From positions 2,480,001 through 2,544,000 of the forward strand of contig NZ_CP030082.1 of NCBI RefSeq assembly GCF_006874645.1: 64,000 bases of DNA, written 5' to 3'. Each line of letters begins with the position of its first letter. Within the stretch, counting starts at the first letter, position 1. The notes under the pieces were generated by a model that did no database searches, had not been told where the DNA came from, and was given only the letters and a program-made list of their open reading frames with translations. Position numbers and translations under genes: made by a program. Source of the DNA: Bdellovibrio sp. ZAP7 (GTDB lineage Bacteria > Bdellovibrionota > Bdellovibrionia > Bdellovibrionales > Bdellovibrionaceae). Below are positions 22,870-29,682 of the stretch, one piece after another.

Positions 22870-23838
22870 ATGAGTAAAAAATCATTATCTTTATACATAA
22901 AAAAATTTGCATTGTTGGCGTCAACAATGACCGCCTTTTTATGGCTCATGCCCACTCAGGCTGCAAAGAATGAAACTCCTCCGGAAGATAAAACCACGCT
23001 GGAAGAAGACTTCATCAACAGCAACATCTATGTCTCCCGCTTCTTCGACAACATGGCGGACAGTATGGATTTGTTTTTAGCGGGGCAACAGTACACGGAA
23101 AGACCCAACACCACATCGGCGGTTTTTGAAACAGCGTCGTACTATAACTCCCTCGAGGGGTTAAGAAACGATCTGAGCTTTGACTTCTATTTACGTCTTC
23201 CGAATGTGGAAGAATACTGGCAAGTGACATTTACATCCTATGACGAAACAGCTGAACGCGGCGTGAGTCAAGAATACCTCAGAAATCAACCCCGTCAGCG
23301 TAATGCCGGGGCGACCTTCGGGTTTTTCAGACAATTGGGAAATGTCAGAACATCCTATCAACCCCGTATCTCATTTTCTTTGCCTCTTAAGATTTCTCAC
23401 ACTTTGACGTTTGAAAGCATTGTGGAAAAATCAAAATCCTATCGAATCAATCCCAAATTGCAATTTTACGCGGATGCCGACAAGGGAACCGGGATGTTCC
23501 AGGCTCTGAATTTTAACTTCACGCTTTCCCGCCGCTTCAGCTTAACCTTCGTCAACGAGGGGGATTATGAAGACAGGATTGCTACTTATACGGTGACGAA
23601 CGGTGTGGCCTTGGGGCAGTGGTTTAGCAAGATGTCGAGCATCTCTTATAATATTTTCTTTACGTCGAAAAATCGGCCGAATTACCACCTGTACTCGTAC
23701 AATTTTTCAGCGGCATTTAGTCAGATTTTATATAAGAATATTTTAGATTATCAGGTTCAGCCCAATATCGATTTTTCTGAAGAGCATGACTTTGTCAGAA
23801 ACCCAGGCGTCAATTTTCACTTGTATATCAGATTTTAA
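22870..23838 (+). CDS. Exported outer-membrane-type protein of unknown function
   Basis: 322 residues from the ATG at 22870 (a TTG one codon earlier is less likely). The signal segment (KKFALLASTMTAFLWLMPTQAA) is followed by an acidic region (ETPPEDKTTLEEDFINSN). Many amphipathic beta strands follow, ending in VNFHLYIRF, the aromatic C-terminus expected for Bam-inserted barrels. It is divergent from the gene at 22104-22850, 19 bases away, and converges with a 4-base overlap on the histidine kinase. Function unknown. Confidence 0.6.
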   Translation: MSKKSLSLYIKKFALLASTMTAFLWLMPTQAAKNETPPEDKTTLEEDFINSNIYVSRFFDNMADSMDLFLAGQQYTERPNTTSAVFETASYYNSLEGLRNDLSFDFYLRLPNVEEYWQVTFTSYDETAERGVSQEYLRNQPRQRNAGATFGFFRQLGNVRTSYQPRISFSLPLKISHTLTFESIVEKSKSYRINPKLQFYADADKGTGMFQALNFNFTLSRRFSLTFVNEGDYEDRIATYTVTNGVALGQWFSKMSSISYNIFFTSKNRPNYHLYSYNFSAAFSQILYKNILDYQVQPNIDFSEEHDFVRNPGVNFHLYIRF

Positions 23839-25895
23839 ACCGAGGGCGTTATTTCGCCCTGGCGTTTTTCAAACTGCCCCAAAAAACCCATGAGCCGTTG
23901 AATCAAATCATGACGACGGATGGGCTTGCTTAAATGCGCATCAAAGCCTGCGGCTAAACAGCGATCACGCTCTTCCTTCATAGCATTTGCCGTCAATGCA
24001 ACGATCAAGTTGGAGTAACCCTCTGAACGAAGCTCCATAGTGGCTTGGCAACCATCTTTGATTGGCATTTGGACGTCCATCAAGATCACGTCATAGCTCT
24101 TAAGACGCGCAGCCCGCACACCATCTTCACCGTTGTTTGCGATAGAAATCTTTGCACCAGCGCCTTCCAGAAAGCGCTGAAGCAACGCCTGGATGTCAGA
24201 AGAGTCTTCAACCAACAAAATCTCGCGCCCCTGCAACGCTGTCGCAAAATCCAAGGACGTGACATCCATGATCTTGATTTTGTGTTCGTTATCTTGCTCC
24301 GACAGGTTGGTAAACATCGGACCATTTTCAGGACAAATGCAATCCACAGTCACCAGGAAGGAACTTCCTTTACCCAGTTCAGAATCCATCAGTACCAGGT
24401 CTCCGCCTAAACGACGAGCCAAAGTCCGTGACAAAGCCAAGCCCAGGCCTGTGCCACCAAACTGGCGGGTATGAGAAGCATCTGCTTGCGTAAATGGCTG
24501 AAACAAAATACCGGCTTGTGCAGGACTGATCCCGATACCGGAATCCGTAATTTCAAAACTTAGAGACTGATGAGTCTCGGATTTACTGACGCTTAAACGT
24601 ACAAAGCCTGAACTTGTAAACTTAATGGCATTGCCAATCAGATTAGATAAAATCTGCGACAAACGAGTCGCATCGGATTTAATAAACCGAGGCATGGCCG
24701 TTTCAATGACAACTTCAAAATGCACATCTTTACTGGCTGTACGGGAATCTGCGAACAGAGTCAGTTCACGCAAAAGTTCGCGCAAATCCACCTCACTGAT
24801 TTCCAGCTCCACTTTACCTGCTTCGACTTTGGAAATATCCAGAATGTCATCGATGATTCTTAGTAAGTAAGTGCTGTTGGTACGAACTTTCGCAGCCCAA
24901 TCCTGACGCTCAGACACCGTCGAGGTCGAATTTGTCAAAAGATCCGAGAAGCCTACGATAGCGCCCAAAGGGGTGCGAATTTCATGACTGACATTCGCGA
25001 TAAAATTGGTTTTCGCGCGGTTGGCGGCCTCGGCCGCATTTTTCATTTCAGCAAGATTTTTATAGAGCAAAGCTCTTTCGATATTTACCGCAAGCTTGTT
25101 GGCAAATTCTTCCGCCATCATTGCATCGACGGCATCGAAGTTTGCTGAGCCGGGAGCGCGCGCCAAAGTCACGCAACCAATCGTGTCGCCGTTTTGTTTG
25201 ATTGGCATGCAGATGTAAGAGCGCAGCCCCACTTTTGTAAACAACGCAAAAGTGCGAGGTGAAATGGAAAGCATGCGAAACATTTCTGGCAAAATGTCTT
25301 CATGAAAAACAGAAGCGCCCGAGCGCAGAACTTTCAGAGGACTTAGAACATCATCAGGATTTTCAAAGCCAATATCTTGAAGCTCTTTTAAAAACGGTAC
25401 AAGTGCGGTGTGCTTATGAGCCACAGTGCCCGGCCCGACTCCTAAGTCTTCACGCAAATCTATACGGCACCAGTCCGCCATATTTTCAATGGCCACTTCA
25501 GCGGCGGCAGTGATTACGGAGTTGCAACAGGCCGTTAAATCAAAATTCCTATCCAATGATTTCAGTGTTGTTGCATAAAACGTCAAAAGACGTTCGGCAT
25601 AATAGTTTTCGCGTGTATCGTGAAGATAAATCAAAAGGTGTTCATTGTAAGGAGCCGGTGCTAAGACTTTTTGAATACGAATCATTTGGCGCAAGGAAGG
25701 ATTTAAACGCGCAAGCAGCTTATCCAGTTTGTGATCAGTGATCTCGCCATCAAAACCCAAAAGGTCACGGGCTGAATCGTTCAATTGCAGCACACACTCA
25801 TCGAGAGTCGTGATAAGAATCGGTAGATGCGTAGCAAAGAAGATGTGCTTCCACATCTCTGCTTCAATCTCCGAAAGCTGAATTTGACCGGCCAT
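23835..25895 (-). CDS. Hybrid sensor histidine kinase (PAS-GAF-HisKA-HATPase-receiver)
   Basis: 686 residues from the ATG at 25895, which has GAGGGG just upstream; a GTG 4 codons earlier is less likely. The N-terminus looks like a PAS fold (HLPILITTLDECVLQLNDSA), followed by a GAF domain (VGLRSYICMPIKQNGDTIGC). HisKA has FIANVSHEIRTPLGAIVGFS with the phospho-His near residue 303. HATPase motifs are NLIGNAIKFT, ITDSGIGIS and GTGLGLALS. A receiver domain (REILLVEDSSDIQ, VILMDVQMP, Asp near 606, and LSKPI) closes the protein. No membrane segment is seen, so sensing is probably cytoplasmic. No partner regulator is adjacent. Confidence 0.92.
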   Translation of the reverse strand: MAGQIQLSEIEAEMWKHIFFATHLPILITTLDECVLQLNDSARDLLGFDGEITDHKLDKLLARLNPSLRQMIRIQKVLAPAPYNEHLLIYLHDTRENYYAERLLTFYATTLKSLDRNFDLTACCNSVITAAAEVAIENMADWCRIDLREDLGVGPGTVAHKHTALVPFLKELQDIGFENPDDVLSPLKVLRSGASVFHEDILPEMFRMLSISPRTFALFTKVGLRSYICMPIKQNGDTIGCVTLARAPGSANFDAVDAMMAEEFANKLAVNIERALLYKNLAEMKNAAEAANRAKTNFIANVSHEIRTPLGAIVGFSDLLTNSTSTVSERQDWAAKVRTNSTYLLRIIDDILDISKVEAGKVELEISEVDLRELLRELTLFADSRTASKDVHFEVVIETAMPRFIKSDATRLSQILSNLIGNAIKFTSSGFVRLSVSKSETHQSLSFEITDSGIGISPAQAGILFQPFTQADASHTRQFGGTGLGLALSRTLARRLGGDLVLMDSELGKGSSFLVTVDCICPENGPMFTNLSEQDNEHKIKIMDVTSLDFATALQGREILLVEDSSDIQALLQRFLEGAGAKISIANNGEDGVRAARLKSYDVILMDVQMPIKDGCQATMELRSEGYSNLIVALTANAMKEERDRCLAAGFDAHLSKPIRRHDLIQRLMGFLGQFEKRQGEITPSV

Positions 25896-25911
25896 TTCGC
25901 CCCTCACATGA

Positions 25912-26065: not shown

Positions 26066-26890
26066 CTAAACACGTTTTAGAGAAGCCCCTAAAGCAAAGA
26101 TGTTCTGCTGACTTTTTCCGTGCAAAAAATGCTGAACTCCCGCCAAAACCAGCTTAAACGAAGACCCGACACTCACCATGCCGGCGTCGGTTTTTATGAC
26201 ATCCGCAACTAGCATTTGTTCCTTTGAAACCAAAACTCGCTGATTGAAATCCTGGGGGCCCAGCTCATCGCGCTCGCCATAACGATTCAGTTCAATGTTG
26301 CGCACTCCCGACACTGCCAATCCTGCTTGAGGCTCCGTGCTGACCACCCATTGCGCCTTTGCTCCCTCGGCAGTTCCCAGCAGGGAGTGACCGGTACCCA
26401 CAGCACCAATCAGGGCTGAAACGGGACCGCCAATGTGCGCGGCCGCCTGCTGACCCAAGAAATGATAGTGACGGCGTTTTTGAAAATCAAAGAGCTGATC
26501 AAATCGCACGCTTCCCGGCTGGTCGAGCAAAAACTTTTCGTAGTTGGGATAGATATTGCTCATGTCCTCTTGAAAAACTTCAGCACCTTGGGAGGTCAAG
26601 GACTCCACCAGAGAAGGCATAACAGTTTTCGGCACGAACAAGGTGCAGCGAAGCCCCCTCTCTTTGCAGTAGTGAGCCAAAGAAACCGCCGTACTCCCTG
26701 CACTGACTTCAGAAATAATGGAACCTTTTACCACCCGTCCAGATTCAAAAAGATAAGAGATCTCCCCTTCGACCATATGATCCTTCATAGAGCCGCCGGG
26801 GTTTTCACCCTCCAAAGAAGTAAAGACGCGGTTGCCGTCCCGAAGGTTTAATTCGGGAGCGACGATTTCAACAATACGCGACCGAGGCAT
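26066..26890 (-). CDS. PLP-dependent enzyme of the cysteine-synthase (fold type II) family
   Basis: 274 residues, short against about 300-320 for O-acetylserine sulfhydrylases. The PLP Lys is in GENPGGSMKDHM near residue 37, followed by a substrate loop SEVSAGSTAVSLA and the phosphate-binding stretch GAVGTGHSLLGTA. The final part VSVGSSFKLVLAGVQ resembles the usual C-terminal Ser region. The start ATG overlaps the stop of the ThiF-like gene by one base (TAATG), so both are translated together. The partner suggests PLP chemistry on an adenylated or sulfur-carrier substrate rather than ordinary cysteine synthesis; this is inference. Confidence 0.82.
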   Translation of the reverse strand: MPRSRIVEIVAPELNLRDGNRVFTSLEGENPGGSMKDHMVEGEISYLFESGRVVKGSIISEVSAGSTAVSLAHYCKERGLRCTLFVPKTVMPSLVESLTSQGAEVFQEDMSNIYPNYEKFLLDQPGSVRFDQLFDFQKRRHYHFLGQQAAAHIGGPVSALIGAVGTGHSLLGTAEGAKAQWVVSTEPQAGLAVSGVRNIELNRYGERDELGPQDFNQRVLVSKEQMLVADVIKTDAGMVSVGSSFKLVLAGVQHFLHGKSQQNIFALGASLKRV

Positions 26891-27741
26891 TAGGCAACAA
26901 TCGGCTTATCAGCGTGCTTCAAGTTTTCAGGAATGTTCAAAGCGCGCGCTTTGTAAGACGCTTCAAAGATCGTCGTTTTAACTTGTGCTACGTCCACGAA
27001 AATTCCATTGGGTGAGTGCACAGTTTTACCCATACCCACAACATTTTTTGCAATTTCCGAAGCTGCCACCGCAGCCGAAGTTTCCCCACCTGGAGTCACA
27101 AACGGAATATATGATGAACGATCCATTGCATGAATCAACTGGCCCCATAGGTAAGTTGGAACTTCAGGACAGATGAAACGCAGGAAGCGAGACAGATTTT
27201 CTTCGTAAGGAAGTTTATCTGAAATCCCTGTTTGCTCAGCAAAAGAAGGCGTATTCTTATTAAAGACAACCACCGAACCGGAAAAACCCAAAGTCGCGCA
27301 GGATGCCACAGGAATACCGCGTTTATGAGCTTCGACATTAAGTGCAAGTTTGTCTTCCATGGCAAATAGATCCACCACGTCCACCACCCAGTCGACTCCT
27401 TTTAGGAATTCATCCAGGTTTGCTTTCTTAACGCCTTCAGGAAAAACTTTGATTTTCACAGCAGGATTAATCGCGCGAGCTTCCGCCAAAGAGCATTCGT
27501 CTTTGCGCATACCAATAGTCGTTTCTTTCGCCATACGCTGACGATTAATGTTCGTTCTTTCGAAAGTATCCGGGTCCGCAATATGGAAATTTTCAAATCC
27601 CATACGAACCAGGTTGATAAATATTGAACCACCTAAACCCAAACCGCCGACAGCGATTTTTGTGTTTTTCATTTTCTCAAGTTGGCCTTCTGTGAAGATA
27701 CCAATGCTGCGAAGAAATCTTTCTTTGTAATGTTGATCCAT
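26890..27741 (-). CDS. ThiF/MoeB/E1-like adenylyltransferase
   Basis: 283 residues from the ATG at 27741, preceded by AAGGAG. The Rossmann motif is IAVGGLGLGGSIFINLVRMG. The ATP-site motifs are DPDTFERTNINRQRM and GMRKDE. The Asp of VDVVDLFAMEDK sits where E1 enzymes keep the Mg-binding Asp. The paired CxxC zinc motifs of MoeB/ThiF are absent and no clear thioester Cys is evident. These enzymes adenylate a carboxyl end of a ubiquitin-like or small substrate. It is operonic with the PLP enzyme and divergent from a GNAT-like gene. Confidence 0.88.
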   Translation of the reverse strand: MDQHYKERFLRSIGIFTEGQLEKMKNTKIAVGGLGLGGSIFINLVRMGFENFHIADPDTFERTNINRQRMAKETTIGMRKDECSLAEARAINPAVKIKVFPEGVKKANLDEFLKGVDWVVDVVDLFAMEDKLALNVEAHKRGIPVASCATLGFSGSVVVFNKNTPSFAEQTGISDKLPYEENLSRFLRFICPEVPTYLWGQLIHAMDRSSYIPFVTPGGETSAAVAASEIAKNVVGMGKTVHSPNGIFVDVAQVKTTIFEASYKARALNIPENLKHADKPIVA

Positions 27742-27770
27742 GATGAGCTCCTTCAAATTATTTTTGAACG

Positions 27771-27842
27771 AAATAAAATTTTGTGTGCAACAACAATTTA
27801 TTTATGCAGATAATCTGAAAGAAGACTAATAAAATTTTATTT
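27771..27842. promoter_or_regulatory. Paired AT palindromes in the divergent ThiF / GNAT-like promoter region
   Basis: AAATAAAATTTT (27771-27782) recurs as its exact inverse AAAATTTTATTT (27831-27842), and the second lies inside a perfect 14-bp palindrome AATAAAATTTTATT (27828-27841). The 48-base interval is AT-rich. Two matched palindromes between divergent genes are what a dimeric regulator would use to control both sides; this is inferred from symmetry only. Confidence 0.45.
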
Positions 27843-27856
27843 AGTTTTAACTCGAT

Positions 27857-28627
27857 ATGATAAAAGCGGAGCCCATCTTGAAAAACCTCAAAGATTTATT
27901 TCAGCTTGTGATTTTAGATTCTCCCATCGAAAACTGGGAAAACAGTGACACTCAAAATGTCTTCGCAAAAATGGTCACCTTAAAAAAGAAAGGTTATGAA
28001 AGCTGCTACCAGCAAGGCGTTCTGCCCGTGGACACTTCTGATTTTTTTGCGACGCACGTGATGCTTTTCGCAAAAGAAGACAACCAAGAATTAACTCCGG
28101 TCATGGGATATAAAACAATATCTCTTAACAAGTGCCGTGAATTCAATCAGACATTCCCAGGCCTGGCCTTAGTGACCAACGCGAAGATGCCCGAGCATAT
28201 TGAAGTCATAAACAACATCATCTCTCGCTGTGAAAAAGAAAATCGCCATCTCGCATATCTAGGATCGTGGACAAAAAATCCCCACTACGACGTCCCCGCA
28301 AATATCAATTTAAAAGATGCCTTTCGCGCCTTTTACCGCCAAGTCTATCGCGAGCAAAATGTCCAGGAGGTCGTGATCGGCGGCACTCTTCGCTTTCGTA
28401 CAGAAAAATTATTCTTCGAATTAGGTCACAGACCACTCGAAGCGAACGGCGCTCCACTATCCCACATCAACGTTGCTCACTTGGTAAAGGAACCGGTGTT
28501 GGTGATGCACTCGATGAAATTTAATGACGAAGCCACGGTGGCGGCTGAAAAAATGTGGGCTGAGGTTTGGAACAACCGCCTTGAAATTGGTGCGGCTGAA
28601 ATTAAGAAAATGCCTTTGGCTGTTTAG
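27857..28627 (+). CDS. GNAT-like protein, possibly FeeM/acyl-homoserine-lactone-synthase-related
   Basis: 256 residues, soluble. The central part (MLFAKEDNQELTPVMGYKTI) followed by VVIGGTLRFRTEKLFFELGH looks like the acetyl-donor fold, in which a Y/F-ELGH-R-P strand closes the N-acyltransferase domain. N-acyl amino acid synthases (FeeM) and autoinducer synthases share this arrangement. No ribosome site of note precedes the ATG; a TTG at 27878 with GGAG upstream is an alternative. It is divergent from the ThiF-PLP pair. Assignment is tentative. Confidence 0.5.
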   Translation: MIKAEPILKNLKDLFQLVILDSPIENWENSDTQNVFAKMVTLKKKGYESCYQQGVLPVDTSDFFATHVMLFAKEDNQELTPVMGYKTISLNKCREFNQTFPGLALVTNAKMPEHIEVINNIISRCEKENRHLAYLGSWTKNPHYDVPANINLKDAFRAFYRQVYREQNVQEVVIGGTLRFRTEKLFFELGHRPLEANGAPLSHINVAHLVKEPVLVMHSMKFNDEATVAAEKMWAEVWNNRLEIGAAEIKKMPLAV

Positions 28628-29508
28628 TGTTTCTGACTGTCAAAAGTGATTTCGAAAACGCAGGCTTGCGCTCCTTTGTGGGCGCAGCACTTTTCGACAA
28701 CACGGGCCTGAGCTTGTCCTAAATATAAAGGTGCAGACGCCATCATGCCTGCCTTCAGGTGGCAGACATGCTCATTGCCCAGATGTTTTACGCGCATTTC
28801 ATCTGCGACGTCTCTTTCCGAGGTCACTTCTAACAAAGCCCCCTGCTCATCAAGACTCAAGAAGCGATAGCGGCAGTTCTTTTCATAAAATTTAAGGCAA
28901 TCACTCCACATGTGCTCGATGATTTCTCGAGCGCTGGCCATCTGCCCATAGTGATCACCCAAGATCGTGGTGGCATTACCGACATAGGTGTAAAGCCCCA
29001 TCGCAAAAAAGTCTTTGGGTTGAAAGTGACGTTTCGCCAAGTAGTTGAGCGTATCAGAAATCACGCGCATGCTGATCGTCGCAAAGGGATCCTGCAAAAC
29101 GGACTCGCTTAAGCCCAAATGCTTTAGAATATCAAAGCGCAACTTCCAGCCGTGATATCTTTCGATATATTCAAACGTGGTAATCGTCGTGCGACGACGG
29201 CCATAATTTGCATAGTTATATGGTTGAGGCAAAGCCCAGGATGACTTTTGATCCGCGCGAATTTGTAAACCGTGATAGTCGACTTCGCCTAAAAGAATCT
29301 GCTCGGGGGAATAAAGAATTTGATCGGAAATACGAATCAACGAATGCTCAGATAGCTTGCGCTGACCAGTGCGGATAAGGGTGTAATCCCACCAGCTCAG
29401 GTCCAAAATATCCTGCCATTGATTCTCTGAAAACTGAGAAACTTGGCGGATACGCTCTAATGTGTCGAAGGACAAGACCTTGCCCGTTCGTGCAACCGTT
29501 GTATTCAT
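28624..29508 (-). CDS. V4R-like small-molecule-binding sensor with N-terminal helical domain
   Basis: 294 residues from the ATG at 29508, chosen for GGAG upstream. Residues 1-~80 are helical with an HTH-like run (TLERIRQVSQFSENQWQDIL, then LSEHSLIRISDQIL). The C-terminal ~150 residues match the V4R/4-vinyl-reductase type pattern, ending VVEKCCAHKGAQACVFEITF with the conserved Cys-Cys, H-x-G and Cys. V4R domains bind aromatic or other small ligands and often regulate degradation genes. It converges with the GNAT-like gene by a 4-base overlap. Ligand unknown. Confidence 0.6.
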   Translation of the reverse strand: MNTTVARTGKVLSFDTLERIRQVSQFSENQWQDILDLSWWDYTLIRTGQRKLSEHSLIRISDQILYSPEQILLGEVDYHGLQIRADQKSSWALPQPYNYANYGRRRTTITTFEYIERYHGWKLRFDILKHLGLSESVLQDPFATISMRVISDTLNYLAKRHFQPKDFFAMGLYTYVGNATTILGDHYGQMASAREIIEHMWSDCLKFYEKNCRYRFLSLDEQGALLEVTSERDVADEMRVKHLGNEHVCHLKAGMMASAPLYLGQAQARVVEKCCAHKGAQACVFEITFDSQKH

Positions 29509-29682
29509 GATGCTCCAAATGACGCTGTGGGTTCTACATGGAATCCAGGCCACCTAAAAGCACTTTCTGTACTCACCTTTGTTTATTTAGGGTTCTAAGG
29601 GACCACCCGTGCGGTTTTTACAGGGGTCCGAGAGCGGGTTTTCACCTGACATGGCACCATTCGATCATTTAAGGTGGGGACA

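Follow-up and report, generated by a model that had tools for sequence, protein, structure and literature searches.

The window analysed here, 64,000 nucleotides of Bdellovibrio sp. ZAP7 (assembly GCF_006874645.1, contig NZ_CP030082.1, positions 2,480,001 to 2,544,000), contains a five-gene unit that includes a putative acyltransferase of the GNAT fold. A hybrid histidine kinase (HK), a short pyridoxal 5′-phosphate (PLP) enzyme and an E1-like (ThiF-family) adenylating enzyme are encoded on one strand, the GNAT gene diverges from the E1 gene, and the gene of a regulator with a helix-turn-helix (HTH) and a V4R-like domain meets it tail to tail, giving the order HK-PLP-E1<>GNAT><regulator (Table 1). 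An earlier note on this DNA had listed three of the open reading frames, and all three lie where it placed them (PLP, 26066-26890; E1, 26890-27756; GNAT-like, 27857-28627). The likelier start of E1 is the ATG at 27741, preceded by AAGGAG, the longer frame beginning at the TTG at 27756; with the ATG start, the gap to the GNAT gene, put earlier at about 115 bases, is exactly 115 bp. The one-base stop-start overlap between the E1 and PLP genes is likewise there (TAATG, position 26890), but these are two overlapping genes and not the fusion that had been described. The three-gene set is thus present, but it overlooked the regulator and the kinase, and as a full unit it was drawn too narrowly, because the PLP gene is optional (6 of 69 loci); no partner accompanies the GNAT as constantly as the HTH-V4R regulator.

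Table 1. Features of the five-gene unit, in window coordinates
Feature	Position	Strand	Basis
Hybrid histidine kinase, GAF - HisKA - HATPase_c - receiver	23835..25907	-	Pfam
Short fold-II PLP enzyme, divergent cysteine-synthase-like	26066..26890	-	PF00291 1e-22
E1-like (ThiF-family) adenylating enzyme	26890..27741	-	PF00899 1.7e-34
Divergent intergenic region E1/GNAT	27742..27856	.	sequence
GNAT, LuxI/FeeM-like fold; D59-x-x-D62, H67, P101	27857..28627	+	AlphaFold, Foldseek, conservation
Regulator, N-terminal XRE-type HTH and C-terminal V4R/H-NOX-fold domain, likely start ATG 29508	28624..29553	-	profile, AlphaFold, Foldseek

The association of these genes extends well beyond the window. Within the phylum Bdellovibrionota the GNAT profile matches 91 of 369 genomes, spread over 50 of 182 genera, and the family is found in 5 of the 24 genomes of the genus; the regulator profile matches 163 of the 369. 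A regulator gene lies within 3 kb of 81 of the 92 GNAT copies, 69 of these pairs being convergent, and such adjacency is far beyond chance, as judged from the rarity of regulator matches (1-5 per genome). Co-occurrence of the homologues in other Bdellovibrionota, whose rarity the earlier note had named as a reason to abandon its reading, is therefore well documented. When genome contigs were scanned with E1 as the seed (80 loci, so that the scan covers GNAT-regulator pairs with such an E1), GNAT and regulator were labelled in Bdellovibrionota loci only. Three GNAT copies (L058, L059 and L060, in genomes G097, G062 and G081) have neither a V4R regulator nor an E1, and share two other partner families (about 215-252 and 235-250 amino acids). 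No description of this GNAT-regulator gene pair was found in the literature, where open-licence papers only were searched and novelty is accordingly unproven.

The block of PLP enzyme, E1, divergent GNAT and convergent regulator is repeated in the relative genomes G022, G005, G014 and G025, with the hybrid histidine kinase beside the PLP gene in the first three and not in G025. Since the outer flanks are common to the window and G022 only, and the flanking genes differ in G005, G014 and G025, the block appears to be kept together or to move together. All five genes occur in G231 and in G224, the latter from another family (f12), and G024 has E1, GNAT, regulator and kinase without the PLP enzyme. 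The kinase is a conserved neighbour in the PLP-containing variant, adjoining in G022, G005, G014, G024, G231 and G224. A shared-promoter operator in the divergent region was considered and rejected: the palindrome AATAAAATTTTATT, at about 27828-27841, is common only to the window and the near-identical G022, and promoter-like sites there do not exceed chance expectation.

That the diverging gene encodes a GNAT-like protein had been guessed from the raw sequence, and correctly so. The AlphaFold model of the protein (ACYLTRANSFERASE; pLDDT 91.6) is a GNAT. Among solved structures Foldseek ranks LasI first, and BjaI and FeeM score high too (template-modelling score, TM, by target about 0.6), a likeness that holds at the level of the fold. 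No Pfam family matches it, nor does any NCBIfam family at a meaningful score, autoinducer synthases included. Conservation is concentrated in a few positions: D62 is present in 33 of 33 GNATs and D59 in 28 of 33, and H67 and P101 are nearly invariant. The D-x-x-D arrangement is a motif of LuxI enzymes, which D59-x-x-D62 recalls; an EISR/ELSR-type motif was not seen in the GNAT alignment. By sequence the protein therefore looks like neither an acyl-homoserine lactone synthase nor a FeeM: its profile-profile match to the acyltransferases beside E1 kin is weak, and a Glu conserved in one of those families aligns with Tyr.

A further property of the family lies at its C terminus. Of 73 GNATs, 44 (60%) end in AA, vs 2% of neighbouring open reading frames (p = 7e-39, a value that overstates independence since the sequences are related), and in 93% the last two residues are both small. 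In the AlphaFold model this tail is disordered, and the -AA ending resembles that of the host tmRNA tag, GNDYALAA. The tail of the family is probably a ClpX-type degron through which the synthase would be turned over. The window GNAT itself ends in LAV and the window E1 in IVA; AA endings are also enriched among E1s (6 of 31).

The adenylation residues of the E1 enzyme are present. R16, GxGxG, N69-x-N71-R72-Q73, K85 and D129 are invariant in 22 homologues, and these we take, from general knowledge and the alignment, to be the residues of the MoeB/ThiF active site. The zinc motifs of MoeB are absent, as had been remarked (three Cys, no CxxC). The best NCBIfam matches are PRK08223 (177 bits) and PRK14851 (137 bits), and other E1s sampled from Bdellovibrionota loci likewise score best with PRK08223. 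On these profile scores and on neighbourhoods, both read at the level of the group, E1 belongs with the PRK08223/PRK14851 enzymes, kin of the acyl-oxazolone cyclases OxzB, TyzB and TrzS. Enzymes of these types produce acyl-oxazolones in the systems OxzAB of Pseudoalteromonas rubra and TyzABC and TrzAS of Mycobacterium, with OxzB, TyzBC and TrzS closing the N-acyl amino acid to the oxazolone ring (PMC10404671, PMC12856293). Of 72 loci with E1 kin in other phyla, 27 contain a nitroreductase, either separate or fused to ThiF, and up to 37 contain a neighbour from three presumed acyltransferase clusters, an overcount because the third cluster (14) looks patatin-type and some members of cluster 7 are not clear acyltransferases. 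One cluster-1 acyltransferase beside E1 kin scores as exosort_acyl (1.8e-78). Linkage to acyltransferases is widespread in this E1 family.

Two sets of E1 loci deserve separate mention. In Colwellia/Alteromonas-type loci (L127, L137, L138, L140, L150, L157 and others), an E1 or a ThiF-nitroreductase fusion adjoins an exosort_acyl-type acyltransferase. Other E1 genes of relatives have a nitroreductase-like frame nearby (G005:C1:3385898-3387240; G037:C5:99751-103167, locus L042; G010:C190), with matches to both halves of PRK14851; these may be classical oxazolone-type loci.

The regulator gene overlaps the 3′ end of the GNAT gene by 4 bp. A profile of 28 relatives matches XRE HTH structures at the N terminus (2e-7), and the AlphaFold model (pLDDT 89.8) matches H-NOX proteins best (TM 0.72-0.76) and also palmitate-bound Bet3 and PoxR, a sensor of phenol. 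The supposed ligands of V4R domains are hydrophobic (PMC2253512). In many relatives the regulator gene has a second, tandem copy beside the GNAT (L101, L102, L104, L108, L205-L208, L214-L216 and others), perhaps a receptor pair, or a separate short HTH gene as companion. A genome of the same genus carries a regulator homologue (G021:C1:2426725-2427555, 2.6e-101) and no GNAT match, possibly a receptor without a synthase.

The PLP enzyme has its Lys in NPGGSMKD, a glycine loop GAVGTGHS and, in place of TSGNTG, the substrate loop SAGSTA. It is not a housekeeping cysteine synthase, to go by its sequence and occurrence, because its best NCBIfam match reaches 59 bits vs a CysK/CysM cut-off of 387, the substrate loop differs, close copies (E<1e-40) occur in 5 of 100 relatives and always in this gene cluster, and a separate CysK-like gene is present at C1:4019346. 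Between the window and G022 the E1s are 99% and the PLP enzymes 89% identical; for G005 the figures are 84% and 52%, as if the E1 reaction were fixed and the PLP reaction diverging. PLP genes beside a second variant in G028, G074 and G080 (407-411 amino acids) are threonine dehydratase-like, and their label as homologues was dropped.

Which enzymes accompany the GNAT varies in a patterned way. Over 69 loci, E1 is found in 27, an S-adenosylmethionine (SAM) methyltransferase (Methyltransf_25) in 36, both in 1 and neither in 7 (Fisher 2e-11); the label switches at least 5 times on the GNAT tree, and both types occur within families f12 and f26. The PLP enzyme (6 of 69 loci) and an alpha/beta hydrolase (45 of 69) are never found together (p = 0.001). 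From these two exclusion patterns, acyltransferase and regulator therefore form the core, and the remaining enzymes are exchangeable. E1 and methyltransferase behave as if they did equivalent tailoring steps, both presumably acting on a carboxylate.

Several steps may be proposed for how such a locus would work. The GNAT, of which the fold is observed, would move a fatty acyl group from acyl-acyl carrier protein or acyl-CoA onto an amino acid. E1, with its adenylation residues in place, would adenylate the free carboxylate of the N-acyl amino acid, by analogy with OxzB, TyzB and TrzS, after which the adenylate would close to an oxazolone-type ring or be captured by another nucleophile. In the related loci where a SAM methyltransferase replaces E1, the same carboxylate would most simply be capped as a methyl ester. 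The PLP enzyme may supply or alter the amino-acid head group; most relatives have the alpha/beta hydrolase instead. The HTH-V4R protein would bind the lipophilic product and control transcription, the hybrid histidine kinase would add a second input, and the -AA-type tail would give the synthase a short life, production then ending together with transcription. The whole would be analogous to a LuxI/LuxR circuit in which the receptor is not homologous to LuxR.

Overall, a locus for small-molecule synthesis and sensing is the best explanation, and one to which we give slightly better than even credence. The parts of this reading differ in strength. Synthesis of an acyl small molecule under a dedicated regulator is likely, and the acylated amino-acid-type product suggested in the earlier note gains support from the LuxI/FeeM fold, the place of E1 in the acyl-oxazolone cyclase group and the conserved linkage, the chemistry itself being presumptive. 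The signalling reading is built on a regulator that stays the same as the tailoring enzymes change, and that the product is a signal sensed by its own maker is close to an even call, on the doubtful side of it. More tentative, and possible without being the expected outcome, is a phylum-wide system of predator signalling in which degron-bearing LuxI-fold acyltransferases work with HTH-V4R receptors, the head group being diversified by E1 or methyl-ester enzymes with an optional PLP step. An oxazolone in particular, suggested by analogy with the known cyclases, is unlikely to be the product.

Comparison with known systems places the locus near several of them without equating it with any. Like Oxz, Tyz and Trz, and like clusters of the stieleriacine type (N-acyl dehydrotyrosine), it combines in one locus a putative acyltransferase of the GNAT fold and a carrier-free ThiF-like enzyme; as in those oxazolone systems the ThiF is kin of PRK14851, Rv1355c and PRK08223, and as in tyz of Mycobacterium tuberculosis the acyltransferase gene is on the strand opposite the ThiF gene. 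Unlike Oxz, Tyz and Trz, it has a PLP enzyme or hydrolase instead of a flavin oxidase (nitroreductase), an acyltransferase of a separate family with no sequence match, and a dedicated HTH-V4R regulator and histidine kinase, and in many relatives a methyltransferase replaces the ThiF. With LuxI/LuxR it shares a LuxI-fold synthase genetically linked to a regulator of ligand-binding type, and the synthase has a D-x-x-D that recalls the LuxI motif. It differs in lacking an autoinducer-synthase family match and any EISR/ELSR-type motif visible in the alignment, in having additional carboxylate-acting enzymes, and in a receptor that combines an XRE HTH with a V4R/H-NOX fold and not the autoinducer-binding and HTH domains of LuxR. 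Similarly, MsvR and the V4R regulators of the PoxR/DmpR type join a V4R-fold sensor to DNA-binding control, but here the HTH is XRE-type and N-terminal, the gene is convergent with that of an acyltransferase, and the sequences are only marginally alike.

The main rival, which we hold to be rather unlikely, is that the locus makes a secondary metabolite (an antibiotic, a membrane lipid or a siderophore-like compound). The regulator would then do no more than control its production, and the compound would have prey or the envelope as its target instead of serving as a signal. The chemistry would be that of the oxazolone and stieleriacine clusters, for which a signalling role is not established, and both the patchy presence within the genus and the exchangeable tailoring genes agree with such a cluster. 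It accounts less readily for a regulator that is the most constant partner, often in tandem, while the tailoring enzymes vary, for the degron-like tail of the synthase, and for the lack of an obvious recurring transporter family among the largest shared neighbour clusters. The fold of the regulator suggests another alternative, namely that its H-NOX-like domain responds to a gas or to the redox state, the regulator tuning an acyl-lipid pathway accordingly, with no self-made ligand. H-NOX proteins are its best fold matches, and MsvR, a V4R-containing regulator, is reported to be redox-sensitive (PMC3729527). Yet the 28 aligned regulators share neither an invariant His nor a YxSxR-like heme motif, for which reason heme sensing was rejected, and palmitate-bound Bet3 and phenol-sensing PoxR match too; we regard this explanation as improbable.

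The E1 fold, its intact adenylation residues and the cysteine-synthase-like partner invite a reading as protein conjugation or sulfur transfer, in which E1 would activate a ubiquitin-like carrier and the PLP enzyme would use the thiocarboxylate. Operons of E1, JAB and cysteine synthase have been described (Iyer et al. 2006; PMC1779556), and the E1-like gene beside a cysteine-synthase-like gene is shared with them; the ubiquitin-like protein, JAB and rhodanese of those operons are not found here, where an acyltransferase and a regulator stand instead. A genome-wide search for ThiS/MoaD gave only one marginal PF02597 match, inside a 738-amino-acid frame, E1 has no zinc cysteines, and its constant partner is an acyltransferase and not a carrier. 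The conjugation reaction offered in the earlier note is thus unsupported (no ubiquitin-like carrier, JAB or E2 was seen), and very improbable. The thiamine or molybdopterin role elsewhere in the genome, which that note had raised against its own proposal, was rejected for want of a convincing ThiS/MoaD. PADLOC yielded generic E1 matches only, and a defence or conjugation role was rejected on that result. Pairings of a GNAT toxin with a small DNA-binding antitoxin are generally common, and with the patchy distribution this would suit a toxin-antitoxin or defence pair, the GNAT being held by the XRE-type protein. In 69 of 81 pairs, however, the two genes converge and do not form an operon, the fold is nearest to LasI, PADLOC is silent on GNAT and regulator, and E1, PLP enzyme, hydrolase and methyltransferase would be left without a role, all of which makes this pairing scarcely credible.

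Several observations count against synthesis and sensing of an acyl signal. By sequence the GNAT matches none of the known acyltransferase families, and ordinary GNATs also appear among its fold matches, for which reason the likeness to LasI, BjaI and FeeM is stated for the fold. Compared profile to profile, it scores weakly with the acyltransferases found beside E1 kin outside the phylum (exosort_acyl 8%, second cluster 42%), and hhalign with the second cluster sets a Tyr where that family conserves Glu. The V4R match of the regulator (PF02830, 23.3 bits, E = 7e-5) falls below the gathering cut-off of 31, though the modelled fold agrees with it. E1s of the second variant are about 24% identical to that of the window, and the genome's two nitroreductase (PF00881) matches, at 148521 and 2972650, are far from the locus at about 2507000, so that a nitroreductase partner for E1 was rejected. 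The exclusion between E1 and methyltransferase is partly linked to lineage, and five independent tree pairs (0 same, about 3 opposite; sign test p = 0.25), although they agree with it in direction, are too few for significance. Saturated oxazolones are reactive, and there is no sign of export or extracellular action.

Read as a metabolite cluster, the locus still marks out an acyltransferase family that has yet to be named. Should the signalling reading hold, 91 of the 369 sampled Bdellovibrionota genomes, a quarter, would possess a circuit of synthase and receptor that escapes standard family searches, since no Pfam family matches the synthase and the regulator scores under the V4R cut-off. 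E1 enzymes acting on free small molecules would then join the possible signal-making enzymes, and the circuit would offer a handle on whether predatory bacteria signal to each other, for example in attack, in prey choice or in the switch to growth.

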